Part shown: piece after piece, positions 7,279-36,659 of the stretch
Layout of the letters: each line of letters starts with the position of its first letter
How positions within the stretch are numbered: the stretch's first letter is position 1
NCBI RefSeq assembly: GCF_004336745.1
Contig: NZ_SJXD01000002.1
Location: 1-52,904, forward strand
Length of the DNA stretch: 52,904 nt
From: Roseococcus sp. SYP-B2431
Lineage (GTDB): Bacteria; Pseudomonadota; Alphaproteobacteria; Acetobacterales; Acetobacteraceae
Direction of reading: 5' to 3'
Notes under the pieces: model-generated
The model's database searches: none
What the model was told of the DNA's origin: nothing
Seen by the model: only the letters and a program-made list of their open reading frames with translations
Position numbers and translations under genes: made by a program

Positions 7279-8481
7279 TCACGCCGCCTTCCCCCGCGGC
7301 AGCCAGCGATAGCCCGCGATCCCGATCACGAGCGAGGAGCCGAGCAGCAGGAAGCCGACGCGGTACCCCGCCTCGCCCACGCCCACCAGCGCCACCGCCC
7401 CGCCCACGACCGCCGGCAGCAGCGCCGAGCCGAGCACCTGCCCCAGATTCACCGTCGTGATGCCGCGCCCGACCATGTGCTCGGGGAAGAGCGCGCGGCC
7501 CTGCGCCACCAGGATGATCGAATAGGTGGAGAAGAAGCAGCACACCATCATGAGGCCGACCGCCGTCCACAGCGGGATGCCGGGCCAGAGCGCCAGCGTG
7601 GTCATGCTGAGGATGACGATGACCGCGGAGGTGATCACCGCCGGCTCCCGCCCCAGATGGCGTTCCAGGAAGGGCAGCGAGAGCTGCCCGCAGGGCACCG
7701 TCAGCCCCATGGCCAGCAGCACGGCGCCGCGCCCGCCGGCGTCCAGCCCGTGCACGTCGTAGAGATAGGGCCCCGCCCAGAGGGTCAGCAGCGTCGCCAT
7801 CACCGCATAGGCGAAGCAGTGCATGGACAGGATCCGCATCAGGCCCGGCGTCCTCCAGACGAGGAACTGGCCGGCCAGCACCTCGCGCAGGGTCTCCTTC
7901 TTCGCCTCGCGCAGGGCCATCCCCGGCGGCGCATCCGCCGCCCAGCGCCACCACGCCGCGCCGACCGCGACCGTCAGCACGGCCGAGACCAGATAGGCGC
8001 CCCGCCAGCCGACCAGCCCGGAGGCCAGCGCCAGCGGTGCGCCGGCCGTCAGCACGCCCACCTGGCTCCAGGCGAAGATGCCGCTCATCGCCTTGGTGAG
8101 GCCGGGGCCGGCATGCCATCGTCCGGCCAGCACCACCGCCGCCATGAAGCTCGCCGCGCAGCCGAGGCCGAGCACGAAGCGCGCGGCGAGGAACTGCGCG
8201 CCGTCCTGCGCCAGGGCCTGGCCCACCGAGCCGATCACCGCCAGCGCCGTGAGCCAGGTCACGAGGCGGCGCGGCCCCATGCGGTCCAGCCCCACGCCCA
8301 CCGGCAGCTGCGCCACCAGCAGGGCCAGGAAGAAGGCGGTGTTGGCGGAGCCGAGCGCCGCCGGGCCGAGCTGCAGCTCCGCCGCCAGCTCGGGCGCCAC
8401 GACGCCCACCGCCGCGCGATGGAACTGGGAGACGGCCGTCATGGCGGACATCGCCGCGCCGACGCGAACGACGGGGGTCAT
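7279..8481 (-). CDS. MFS transporter
   Basis: 400 aa from ATG at 8481 (MTPVVRVGAAMSA). About twelve hydrophobic segments are visible, with the MFS signature between helices 2 and 3 (GVGLDRMGPRRLVT). It resembles the second MFS protein at 10329 in style (PVG-LD-x-x-G-x-RR motif and a DAPPG segment in the central loop), so the two may be diverged paralogues. The upstream gap towards the ArsR gene is occupied by the 103-bp dispersed element at 8536-8638. Substrate unknown; the nearby ArsR-type regulator is a candidate controller. Confidence 0.88.
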   Translation of the reverse strand: MTPVVRVGAAMSAMTAVSQFHRAAVGVVAPELAAELQLGPAALGSANTAFFLALLVAQLPVGVGLDRMGPRRLVTWLTALAVIGSVGQALAQDGAQFLAARFVLGLGCAASFMAAVVLAGRWHAGPGLTKAMSGIFAWSQVGVLTAGAPLALASGLVGWRGAYLVSAVLTVAVGAAWWRWAADAPPGMALREAKKETLREVLAGQFLVWRTPGLMRILSMHCFAYAVMATLLTLWAGPYLYDVHGLDAGGRGAVLLAMGLTVPCGQLSLPFLERHLGREPAVITSAVIVILSMTTLALWPGIPLWTAVGLMMVCCFFSTYSIILVAQGRALFPEHMVGRGITTVNLGQVLGSALLPAVVGGAVALVGVGEAGYRVGFLLLGSSLVIGIAGYRWLPRGKAA

Positions 8482-8535
8482 GCGGCCGCGAGCAGGGCAC
8501 GCACTCCTGGGGCCAGCGCATCTGCGGAGATTTTC

Positions 8536-8638
8536 GGCCGCATAGCGGCCGGCGCTGTCCAACTGACCGCGCCGTCTGGACCACCGGCGGCGCGGCGACG
8601 CCAAGCCGCCCGAGGCGGCGCCCGGCGTTTGAGGGCAT
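8536..8638. repeat. 103-bp dispersed stem-loop element, copy A
   Basis: Aligns without gaps over 103 bases to the reverse complement of 35821-35923, with about 79 identical positions by hand count. Stem-loop 1 is 8536-8550 (ggccgc-3-gcggcc) and stem-loop 2 is 8605-8619 (gccgcc-cga-ggcggc). The last 20 bases (cccggcgtttgagggcat) are identical in both copies. It lies between the MFS and ArsR genes. On the minus strand it is open and reads DALKRRAPPRAAWRRRAA and so on, similar to the peptide readable from copy B. Confidence 0.9.
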
Positions 8639-8647
8639 CAAGAATCC

Positions 8648-9334
8648 TCATGCCGCGATGCCGAACTCCACCGAGAGCGCCCGGGCCCCCTCCGGCGTGC
8701 AGGCCAGCCGCCGCCGTTGCAGGAGGTCGGTCGCCGAGGGCTCTATCCGGGTGAGCCAGAGGCGGCGCGTCATCATCGACGCGATCTCGCGCCCCAGCCC
8801 GCCGGAGAGGTGCGGCCGGCGCTCGGACCAGTCCATGCAGTCGCAGGCGAAGCGGGGCGCGCGGCGGGCGGCGGCGAGGTCCACGCCCAGCTTCGCCAGC
8901 CGTGCCTCGCCGGATTCCGTCGCGACCCAGCCGCCTGGCGCGGCCTCGATCCAGCCGTCGCCCGTCATCCGCGCGTGCAGCGCCACGCCGATCCGTCCGG
9001 CGACGTGGTGCCAGCACAGCCGCGCCTGCCGGAAGCCCTCGCCATGCGGCCAGGACTTGCGGGGGCTGGCCTGGGGCAGCGCCATCAGCGTCTCCAGAGC
9101 GCTCGCGACCTCCTCGCCGGCCAGCCGGTGATACCGGTGCCGTCCCTGGGCATGGACGCTCACCAGCCCCGAATCGACGAGCGCCTTCGCCTGGGCGCTG
9201 GCCGCCGCGGCGCCGATCCCCGCCACGCGCGCCAGCTCGCCGGCGGTCAGCGCCTCGCCGGGCAGCAGGGCCTGCAACATGGCGGCACGGGAGGGGTCGC
9301 CGATCAGATGGGCGATGGTGGCGAGATTGGACAT
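8648..9334 (-). CDS. ArsR family transcriptional regulator
   Basis: 228 aa. The N-terminal winged helix-turn-helix (about residues 1-75) begins IAHLIGDPSRAAMLQALL and continues LARVAGIGAAAASAQAKALVDSGLVSVHAQGRHRYHRL, typical of ArsR/SmtB-type repressors. The C-terminal extension of about 150 residues contains CWHHVAGRIGVAL and FACDCMDWSERRPHLSGGLG, a layout known from larger ArsR-like regulators that bind small molecules or metals; a DCxDW motif is visible. It is upstream of the MFS carrier on the same strand and divergent from the EEP hydrolase, so it could control either. The ligand is unknown. Confidence 0.85.
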   Translation of the reverse strand: MSNLATIAHLIGDPSRAAMLQALLPGEALTAGELARVAGIGAAAASAQAKALVDSGLVSVHAQGRHRYHRLAGEEVASALETLMALPQASPRKSWPHGEGFRQARLCWHHVAGRIGVALHARMTGDGWIEAAPGGWVATESGEARLAKLGVDLAAARRAPRFACDCMDWSERRPHLSGGLGREIASMMTRRLWLTRIEPSATDLLQRRRLACTPEGARALSVEFGIAA

Positions 9335-34757: not shown

Positions 34758-35822
34758 CTATCGCTGTATCTGCCCACCCGCAATCACCCGCCCATCCCAA
34801 TAAACCACCGCTGCCTGCCCCGGCGCAGCGATCCCCGGCACATCCGGCGTCAGCACCAGCTCCGCCCCATCCCAATCCGCCATCATCCCCGCCGGCCGCT
34901 CGCGCCCGCGCAGCTTCGCCTCGCAGCGGAAAGCCCCGGAAGGCGGCTCGACCAGCCAGTTCACCTCGCGCACGCGAATCTGCGTCTGGGCCAGCTTCTC
35001 CCGATGCGCCACCACCACGCGCCGCTTCGTCGCGTCGAGCTGCGCCACGAACAACGGCGCCTCGTCCTCGCGCCGCGAGATGCCGAGCCCACGCCCCTGC
35101 CCCACCGTGTAGCGCGCGAGGCCGCGATGCTGCCCCAGCACCTTGCCGTCCTCGTCCACGATCTCGCCCGGCTCCAGCGCCTCCGGCCTGAACTTGCCGA
35201 CCACATCGGCATAGGTGCCGGTCGGCACGAAGCAGATGTCCTGGCTGTCCGGCTTCTCCGCCACCGCGACACCCAGCCGCACGGCCTCGGCCCGCACCTC
35301 CGCCTTGGTGGCGTAGCCCCCCAGCGGAAACAGCGTCTTCGCCAGCTGTGCCCGCGTGGTCTGCGCCAGGAAGTAGGACTGGTCGCGCACGGGGTCCACG
35401 GCCTGGTGCAGCTCCGGCCCCTCCGGCCCATCGATGCGGCGCGCGTAATGGCCCGTGGCCAGCGCCTCGCAGCCGAGGTCCGCGGCCAGCTCGGTCAGGT
35501 CGTGGAACTTCACGGTCTGGTTGCAGCGGATGCAGGGGATGGGCGTCTCGCCGCGCGCGTAGCTGTCGGCGAAGTCCTGGATCACGGCCTCGCGGAAGCG
35601 CTGCTCGCGGTCCAGCACGTAGTGCGGGATGCCCAGGTGCTCCGCCACGTTGCGCGCGTCGTGGATGTCCTGCCCCGCGCAGCAGGCGCCCTTCTTCTGG
35701 ATGGCGGCGCCGTGGTCGTAGAGCTGCAGCGTGGCGCCCACCACCTCGTGCCCCTGCTCATGCAGCAGCGCGGCCACGACCGACGAGTCCACGCCGCCGG
35801 ACATGGCGACAAGTATTTTCAT
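34758..35822 (-). CDS. mnmA: tRNA-specific 2-thiouridylase MnmA
   Basis: 354 aa. The PP-loop is VAMSGGVDSSVVAAL; the Cys catalytic pair lies in PIPCIRCNQTVKF and SQDICFVPTG. It installs 2-thio on U34 of tRNA for Glu, Gln and Lys using sulfur passed on from IscS. The start codon at 35822 lies 1 base from the 103-bp repeat copy B, which supplies GAGG as its ribosome-binding site. The gene is downstream of tenA, fdx and the cysteine desulfurases, which fits sulfur relay. Confidence 0.96.
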   Translation of the reverse strand: MKILVAMSGGVDSSVVAALLHEQGHEVVGATLQLYDHGAAIQKKGACCAGQDIHDARNVAEHLGIPHYVLDREQRFREAVIQDFADSYARGETPIPCIRCNQTVKFHDLTELAADLGCEALATGHYARRIDGPEGPELHQAVDPVRDQSYFLAQTTRAQLAKTLFPLGGYATKAEVRAEAVRLGVAVAEKPDSQDICFVPTGTYADVVGKFRPEALEPGEIVDEDGKVLGQHRGLARYTVGQGRGLGISRREDEAPLFVAQLDATKRRVVVAHREKLAQTQIRVREVNWLVEPPSGAFRCEAKLRGRERPAGMMADWDGAELVLTPDVPGIAAPGQAAVVYWDGRVIAGGQIQR

Positions 35823-35923
35823 GCCCTCAAACGCCGGGCGGCGGCTCCGCCGCCTTGGCTTCGCCGCGCCACGGTCGCACCCGGCGTCGCTGTAGAGTGG
35901 GCGGCGCCGGCCGCCGTGCGGCC
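35821..35923. repeat. 103-bp dispersed stem-loop element, copy B
   Basis: Its reverse complement aligns without a gap with 8536-8638. Stem-loop 1 lies at 35909-35923 (ggccgc-acg-gcggcc on the minus strand). Stem-loop 2 lies at 35840-35854, where the arms are GGCGGC and GCCGCC, the reverse of copy A, so base pairing is kept while the sequence of both arms is exchanged. The conserved end includes TTTGAGGGC directly before the mnmA ATG. Confidence 0.9.
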
Positions 35924-35942
35924 GGATTCCGGGAGGGCGGCG

Positions 35943-36659
35943 CTAGCCATTGCCCACGAAGTCCCCGCCCCGGACCGCGTCCAGCCCCTGCTGCCAGAAG
36001 CGCTGCTCCAGCCGCGCCGCCATGGAGAAGTCGCGCAGCACTTCCTTGAACCGCGCCTCGCCGCCATGGCTTTCGCTCAGCGCGTCGATGCGGTGGGCGG
36101 CGGCCTCGGCCAGGGCCTGGTAGCCGTCACTCGAATAGGTGTCGATCCAGGACTGGTAGGGGTTGCCGGCCGTCATGCGCTTGGGGTCGGCCATGATGCG
36201 CCGCGCCACCTCGCCATAGCCCACGGTGCAGGGGACCAGCGCGATCTCGAGGTCCATGATGTCGCCGTGCATGCCGCGGTCCATGACCCAGCGGGTGTAG
36301 CTGACCGTCTCGATGGATTCCGGGATCTTCGTGACCTCCTCCTCGGAGAGGCCCCATTCCGCGCAATACTTCAGGTGCAGCAGCGTCTCGTCGAGGATGG
36401 CCAGCACGGCGGCCGCCTTGCCCCGCATGGCGGACAGGCTCTCGCCCTTCACCACGGCCAGCGCCTTGGCCCGCGCGAAGTGGATGAGGAACAGGTAGTC
36501 CTGGATCAGATAGGTCTGGAACGCCTGGAGCGGCAGCGTGCCGGCCGAGAGCTGCTGCACGAAGGGATGCCAAGTGTAGCCCGCCCAATCCGCGCCGGAG
36601 GCGGCGCGGAGCTTGCGGAACAGGCCGTCAGCGGCGCCGAAATCCTCGATCCCCCGCAT
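35943..36659 (-). CDS. tenA: TenA family thiaminase/aminopyrimidine aminohydrolase
   Basis: 238 aa. The all-alpha TenA fold is marked by WHPFVQQLSAGTLP, YLIQDYLFLIHFARA, the catalytic Cys144 in IALVPCTVGYGEV, and Glu218 in FSMAARLEQRFW. TenA salvages thiamin pyrimidine by hydrolysing aminomethyl-pyrimidine or, in some species, cleaves thiamin. It lies between fdx and mnmA on the same strand, 6 bases after fdx. All catalytic residues are present. The link to the sulfur genes is through thiamin, a sulfur cofactor, but no thi genes are near. Confidence 0.92.
   Translation of the reverse strand: MRGIEDFGAADGLFRKLRAASGADWAGYTWHPFVQQLSAGTLPLQAFQTYLIQDYLFLIHFARAKALAVVKGESLSAMRGKAAAVLAILDETLLHLKYCAEWGLSEEEVTKIPESIETVSYTRWVMDRGMHGDIMDLEIALVPCTVGYGEVARRIMADPKRMTAGNPYQSWIDTYSSDGYQALAEAAAHRIDALSESHGGEARFKEVLRDFSMAARLEQRFWQQGLDAVRGGDFVGNG

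Follow-up and report, generated by a model that had tools for sequence, protein, structure and literature searches.

The locus and two copies of an element

The stretch of DNA analysed here, which we call the window, covers 52,904 nucleotides of one contig of Roseococcus sp. SYP-B2431. A sequence of 103 bases lies in it between a gene for an MFS transporter and a helix-turn-helix gene, and a related copy is found on the opposite strand between a TENA/THI-4 gene and an mnmA-like gene. The original prediction had described both as a gapless pair with about 79 identities, and this description is confirmed: BLAST aligns all 103 bases of copy A (8536–8638, plus strand) and copy B (35821–35923, minus strand) at 77%, or about 79 matches, and an alignment of 30 copies places no gap between the two. 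What was called stem-loop 2, here P4, had also been read correctly in the two copies, at 8605–8619 and, on the minus strand, at 35854–35840. The features are as follows.

7279–8481, minus strand: MFS transporter gene, facing the 5' end of copy A (gene calling, domain match)
8482–8647, no strand: about 165 bp present here and missing in Roseococcus pinisoli, where the genes overlap at ATGA (locus comparison)
8536–8638, plus strand: copy A, core as first delimited (BLAST, covariance model R1; model match spans 8528–8645)
8534–8541, plus strand: copy A, 5' arm of P1, pairing with 8545–8552 (consensus structure placed on the sequence)
8545–8552, plus strand: copy A, 3' arm of P1 (consensus structure)
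8553–8558, plus strand: copy A, 5' arm of P2, pairing with 8592–8597 with two wobbles
8592–8597, plus strand: copy A, 3' arm of P2 (consensus structure)
8600–8602, plus strand: copy A, 5' side of P3, GCC, pairing with 8624–8626
8605–8619, plus strand: copy A, P4 hairpin GCCGCC-CGA-GGCGGC (consensus structure)
8620–8636, plus strand: copy A, conserved 3' end GCCCGGCGTTTGAGGGC (exact motif match; GAGGG at 8632–8635 with G at 8631)
8637–8647, plus strand: copy A, tail ATCAAGAATCC, reaching the stop codon of the neighbouring gene (sequence, tail composition)
8648–9334, minus strand: helix-turn-helix gene (HTH_20/MarR-like); its stop codon directly adjoins the 3' end of copy A (gene calling, domain match)
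34758–35822, minus strand: mnmA-like gene (tRNA_Me_trans domains), downstream of copy B in sense orientation (domain match)
35821–35923, minus strand: copy B (BLAST, R1; model match spans 35814–35931)
35823–35839, minus strand: copy B, conserved 3' end GCCCGGCGTTTGAGGGC, with the mnmA start codon at 35822 directly after it (motif match)
35840–35854, minus strand: copy B, P4 hairpin GGCGGC-GGA-GCCGCC (consensus structure)
35907–35925, minus strand: copy B, P1 hairpin CCGGCCGC-ACG-GCGGCCGG (5' motif match)
35943–36659, minus strand: TENA/THI-4 gene, upstream of copy B (domain match)

Family size and distribution

Copy A as a BLAST query gave 41 matches in the same genome, and the covariance model R1, built from 30 BLAST-found copies (alignment A2), gave 84 matches at E < 0.003 in the 4.7-Mb genome and 86 at E up to 1, far more than chance would produce. 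The dispersed palindromic family that had been suspected from two copies is thus real and extends over the genus and the family; there are far more than two copies, and they covary. R1 found the element in all 21 Roseococcus genomes searched, SYP-B2431 included, with from at least 2 to 90 matches per genome, counts that are lower bounds as at most 89 candidates were scored. A first, smaller draw of four genomes from other genera of the family gave none with the element, and a wider draw, with 12 candidates scored per genome, gave 54 of 299 genomes and 19 of 102 genera; among genomes from other families it was present in 3 of 16, with weaker scores. Sixteen of 27 named genomes or records run with R1 had a match and 11 had none. 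High counts were obtained for Roseococcus sp. SDR (137 matches), Roseomonas oleicola (93), Roseomonas sp. AR75 (89) and Neoroseomonas nitratireducens (85), followed by a Niveispirillum plasmid (16) and Rhodovarius crocodyli CCP-6 (12). Azospirillaceae carry a compact form. When four plasmid records with weak matches were inspected, those of A. oryzae (L428) and A. ramasamyi (L431) carried the element and those of A. brasilense (L429) and S. meliloti (L430) did not.

Copy B had no BLAST match in phages, and viral contigs contained no exact match to the core pattern; the same scan of a broader contig collection also gave zero, a result that means little because that collection may omit near relatives. 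Rfam 15 at the gathering threshold reported two tRNAs in the window and nothing on the element; searched at E up to 5, copy B gave a single chance-level match (E 1.6), and six element loci gave none at E up to 0.5. None of the literature matches listed, most of them judged by their listing, deals with a repeat of this kind in Roseococcus or Roseomonas. Some copies stand head to tail in tandem with periods of 111 to 153 bp, at C12:221699-222091, C28:17575-17802 and C1:154643-154914 of SYP-B2431 and, within the same range of periods, at C2:376479-376713 of Roseococcus sp. SDR.

Structure and covariation

The core of the element is about 105 nt long (101–111 nt in 53 full-length SYP-B2431 copies) and shortens to about 85–90 nt in several other species and genera. 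It consists of hairpin P1, helix P2 with a variable loop, and helix P3 enclosing P4, together with the unpaired stretches AA, AA, GGA and GCCC and a tail of TGAGGGC with an A-rich end. In SYP-B2431, 96.2% of 1779 alignment cells in the four helices are paired and 18 of the 23 pairs have changes on both sides, counted over 85 model-aligned matches, a set made up of 83 copies plus two truncated ends from neighbouring loci. None of 500 shuffles reached any of the observed measures of covariation, and sliding the partner by 1–3 columns lowers pairing to 56% or less. The 85-row alignment was fitted to the model and its counts therefore lean toward it; double changes are already present in 9 of the 23 pairs when 30 copies are aligned without such fitting. 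Across genera (42 rows, 7 from SYP-B2431 and the rest from other Acetobacteraceae and Azospirillaceae), 98.0% of the cells are paired, 17 pairs show double changes and A-U pairs are present in P4. The AA before and after GSC as well as GGA, GCCC and TGAGGG are kept there with few exceptions. Pairing in the hairpins is therefore certain, and the covariation that the original prediction had proposed is found both within SYP-B2431 and across genera. Since the P2 loop is short in many copies of other genera, the middle of 30 nt in Roseococcus looks like an expansion of this loop.

Derivatives with internal deletions retain both ends. In four SYP-B2431 copies, two per orientation, a 23-bp hairpin GGTTGGGGC-n5-GCCCCAACC takes the place of the P4 loop and one arm (L084:1609-1631, L086:1535-1557, L088:1508-1530 and, with one mismatch, L090 near 1500); it could represent either another family of small palindromes or a hairpin that was exchanged. 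In L050, L055 and L070 and in copies L212, L221 and L227 of genome G001, the P4 arms are GCGAGC/GCGAGC and can pair only if two central G-A mismatches are tolerated; tandem G-A pairs are stable. A second hairpin on the left was considered and rejected: conservation fades by about -26, and a GGAT...ATCC pairing was not supported, GGAT being present in 15 of 93 rows and the unrelated GGAA in 13 of 93.

Placement relative to genes

Genes were called with a home-made caller, with its Shine-Dalgarno bonus on for the count of 84 SYP-B2431 copies and off for the count over three genomes. No called gene spans any of the 84 copies, and five copies overlap the end of a neighbour by up to 29 nt. In the orientation of the element, the flanking genes in SYP-B2431 are ++ in 31 cases, -- in 32, +- in 19 and -+ in 2; in three genomes, where both flanks were callable for 127 of 144 copies, the counts are ++ 49, -- 41, +- 34 and -+ 3, and for 27 copies of other genera ++ 11, -- 11, +- 4 and -+ 1. 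Sampled junctions of the same genus (n=369) comprise 247 codirectional, 61 convergent and 61 divergent ones. Divergent junctions thus account by number for 3 of 127 copies against 61 of 369 sampled junctions (p 3e-7), which indicates that divergent sites are avoided. The mixed orientation in SYP-B2431 also means that sense translation cannot be the sole context of the element.

The 3' end of the element is GAGGGC followed by the A-rich tail, and both the Shine-Dalgarno core and the action of REP sequences at mRNA ends are familiar themes. With the Shine-Dalgarno bonus off, GGGC in the 52 sense copies lies 6–9 nt from the called start in 23 cases, directly at it (gap 0) in 5, more than 20 nt away in 18 and at another distance in 6; two of these six are mnmA copies that have an ATG at 0 and whose gene was called from the following ATG, 18 nt further along. 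Of 12 copies in other genera that are followed by a sense gene, 8 have a gap of 5–8 nt, here with the bonus on. Given this spacing, the 3' end probably serves as the Shine-Dalgarno sequence of the downstream gene in some sense copies, those with a gap of 6–9 nt; the 18 of 52 copies with starts more than 20 nt away show that this role cannot hold for all. In antisense copies the element ends at most 11 nt from a stop codon in 52 of 75 cases.

Occupied and empty sites

At the site of copy A, 17 loci were compared and the element is present in SYP-B2431, as part of about 165 bp between its two genes. In 11 of the 17 loci there is no element and the stop codon of the helix-turn-helix gene overlaps the MFS start as ATGA or GTGA; the locus of G001 ends at a contig edge and is unreadable, and G005, G014 and G017 have other palindromic filler. 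The filler in G019 is partly like the element core and reaches only E 0.018 with R1. This locus (L148) contains GAAGCCAAG and a hairpin resembling P4, oriented oppositely to copy A, then CCTGAGGGGC before the MFS start, and may represent a separate insertion at this junction that has since decayed. At the site of copy B the element is present in SYP-B2431 and R. pinisoli and absent in 15 of 17 loci. Full matches to R1 come only from SYP-B2431 and R. pinisoli at site B and from SYP-B2431 at site A; three other matches elsewhere are at chance level.

In R. pinisoli, 16 rows could be aligned with both flanks. The element is present in one of them (L059) and a remnant in another (L049); the remaining 14 have neither at E 0.05 or better, and three additional matches (E 0.07-0.1) do not rise above chance. 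The two flanks are no more than 34 nt apart in 8 of the 16. At L086 R. pinisoli reads TGATG across the junction and at L090 ATGA, and the element splits both in SYP-B2431. For 60 element loci of R. pinisoli or G001, a SYP-B2431 copy was matched on both sides in 32, on one side in 2 and not at all in 26. Presence and absence between close species, together with sites that lack the element, support the mobility that had been suspected; gain at the occupied sites is what these comparisons suggest, and at any single site the difference may instead reflect loss.

As for the mode of movement, left and right flanks of 134 copies gave a mean score of 15.03 against 14.73 for shuffled pairs (p 0.33), so there is no target duplication overall. 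At one junction a duplication is possible, as the sequence to the left of copy B is similar to the mnmA start (score 27.5). A RAYT transposase (Y1_Tnp, PF01797) had no match in the SYP-B2431 genome, with the control positive in 5 of 14 named genomes, and the sequence logo has no clear terminal inverted repeat. The end motifs matched no long autonomous copy in SYP-B2431. Of 64 matches to the 3' motif (up to 1 mismatch), 5 fall outside known copies, as do 2 of the 49 to the 5' motif (up to 2 mismatches); these seven are one tandem tail beside a known copy, four sequences inside called genes and two short intergenic remnants. Different GC-rich palindromes stand where SYP-B2431 has the element in L231 (R. 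pinisoli, at the site of L051) and, at site A, in L145 of G005, L144 of G014 and L150 of G017; such junctions may therefore attract repeats in general.

Change of the element in place

We compared 32 orthologous copy pairs whose flanks are 81–94% identical, 27 of them full-length. In the 27 full-length pairs, the divergence is 0.095 in P1, 0.080 in P2, 0.111 in P3, 0.272 in P4, 0.350 in the middle and 0.156 in the tail; among the copies of SYP-B2431 in the same alignment the values are 0.121, 0.201, 0.083, 0.279, 0.449 and 0.165. The P4 set in these figures includes the innermost P3 pair, and the both-sided and one-sided counts below separate the two. The initial impression of conserved ends and a drifted middle holds, as 9.5% of sites differ in P1 and 8.0% in P2 against 35% in the middle.

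Over the 32 orthologous pairs, 42 P4 base pairs changed on both sides and are still paired versus 12 that changed on one side; for P1 the counts are 7 versus 24. By comparison (27 in all), P4 has at least one matched change in 19 and at least two in 16, is identical in 5 and has one-sided changes only in 3. The two P4 arms share 2.58 bits, 0.63 when shuffled, in the 90 of 147 rows that fit the strict pattern. The linkage of P4 to its surroundings, measured with 1000 shuffles, is not clear for P2 type (212 shuffles reach the observed value), the tail (108) or the loop (60) and is weak for P3 (17). As half-changed stems are fewer than stepwise compensation predicts, and neighbouring features are not carried along as they would be by long conversion tracts, we read P4, from these sequence comparisons, as being replaced in place as a unit, both arms together. 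Hairpin inversion, the other explanation offered for the swapped stem, fails on logic, since an inversion of X-loop-X' would leave the arms as they were and reverse-complement the loop, whereas the observed change swaps the arms and the loop stays GGA/CGA-like.

Another possibility is that the element is a neutral repeat without host function, its palindromes kept by DNA processes such as gene conversion or hairpin-templated correction. P4 diverges equally between orthologues and paralogues, its arms change together (42 against 12) and wobbles show no strand bias within the genus, all of which speaks for this reading; against it, P2 and the middle keep locus identity, P4 is nearly unlinked to features 10–20 nt away that long conversion tracts would carry, and sense copies show the spacing to start codons. 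We therefore regard it as a possible but rather doubtful account of the whole.

Selection on RNA is a related question. Pairing and the unpaired core are kept across genera and in Azospirillaceae, stems are more conserved than the middle at orthologous loci, and sense copies show the start spacing, as would be expected of a structured cis-acting RNA, a leader or 3' UTR kept by transcript selection, spread by old duplication and now fixed. The structural selection proposed in the original prediction is supported in part only, by the pairing across genera and not by the wobbles: within the genus G-U is not enriched over A-C on the element strand (25:23 in SYP-B2431, 19:30 in two relatives) and does not track the transcript (5:10 in sense, 13:7 in antisense, p 0.09), so within the genus the wobbles do not point to RNA. 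Other genera give 18:4, with about half of the G-U coming from one doubtful P1 pair. With both orientations equally common and many sites differing between close species, a cis-acting RNA of this kind appears unlikely, somewhat more so than the neutral repeat.

Relation to known repeats

CIR (CcrM-associated intergenic repeats) are alphaproteobacterial, exclusively intergenic and about 110 bp long, with two hairpin arms and a linker and partly with a GANTC site, as described in PMC2229807. Compared by description, the element is alike in size, intergenic placement, host, arms and linker, and partial GANTC, and one could regard it as a CIR with a GANTC methylation site. In 49 of 124 copies a GANTC sits at a constant position, with its A 2 nt ahead of ATCC, against a background of 0.0015 per base in the window. 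The other 75 copies lack it there, the element has a Shine-Dalgarno-like 3' end, and R1 had no match in one Caulobacter and four Phenylobacterium genomes; membership in CIR appears improbable.

REP elements with GTAG or CGTC tags are palindromes of 20-40 bp with a fixed unpaired tag at one end, and the CGTC type is given as missing in Acetobacteraceae (PMC3733652). The element shares with them the palindromic structure, extragenic position, high copy number, both orientations and mobility without its own gene. It differs in its core of 85–105 nt (101–111 nt in the 53 SYP-B2431 copies), in the lack of a RAYT gene in the SYP-B2431 genome, and in its tag, which is not fixed: CGTC stands on the 3' side in 40 of 90 pattern-fitting rows with other dinucleotides in the rest, and GTAG is not seen in the consensus. 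From MITEs it is distinguished by the absence of target site duplication (134 copies, p 0.33). ERIC/enterobacterial repeats are known to show internal deletions, another property found here. PMC2229807 describes ERIC/IRU and other enterobacterial repeats as intergenic, about 100–130 bp long and folding into stem-loops, all as in the element, lists short terminal inverted repeats and target duplications for ERIC in its table, and states that ERIC affects mRNA stability; of target duplications none was found in the element. In Alphaproteobacteria, a likeness by description exists to Bru-RS1 and Bru-RS2 of Brucella, reportedly repeated palindromic elements of about 100 bp said to have been described by Halling and Bricker in 1994 (cited in PMC2267715). 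Finally, a coding palindromic element like the RPE of Rickettsia, which sits in frame and contributes a peptide, is refuted and has next to no probability: copies A and B are both open in one frame, which had led to the proposal of a conserved peptide, but the lengths of the 53 full-length copies spread evenly over the three frames (19, 18 and 16), stops interrupt every one of the six frames in 7 to 21 of these copies, and no called gene spans a copy.

A proposed model of a mobile repeat at gene junctions

Taken together, the element is probably a new family of non-autonomous, palindromic intergenic repeats of the REP/CIR/ERIC kind that was mobile at least until recently, its mover and any action as RNA being putative. 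To judge from the sites without it in sister species, it would have entered joints on the 3' side of genes, and it presumably survives only where neither flanking gene is broken. In the sense orientation, its 3' end would become the Shine-Dalgarno sequence of the downstream gene, as the spacing suggests, and a gene that once overlapped an upstream stop would thereby regain a start signal of its own. In the antisense orientation, the tail would lie just behind the stop codon of a gene whose transcript would carry the hairpins in its 3' part; by analogy with REP and ERIC, their most likely effect there would be on mRNA stability or termination. Meanwhile the hairpins would be kept paired, with P4 changing in place as a unit.

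A more specific version of this model is put forward tentatively and may well prove wrong. It holds that the element is a mobile gene-junction cassette that splits pairs of genes with overlapping stop and start codons and replaces their coupling with its own Shine-Dalgarno sequence, and that P4 is rewritten in place as a self-complementary unit, faster than the other stems, by a templated mechanism or by an enzyme acting on single strands.

Since the family has no entry in Rfam 15 and is common to several species of the Roseomonas group and Azospirillaceae, it can be studied in cultured environmental strains. P4, with matched-pair change in 19 of 27 orthologous comparisons, is a natural test of how palindromes stay palindromic. 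If the reading above holds, a repeat family can rewire operons by parting genes that overlap at stop and start and giving the second its own start signal, which would be a concrete and testable route by which small repeats alter gene expression.
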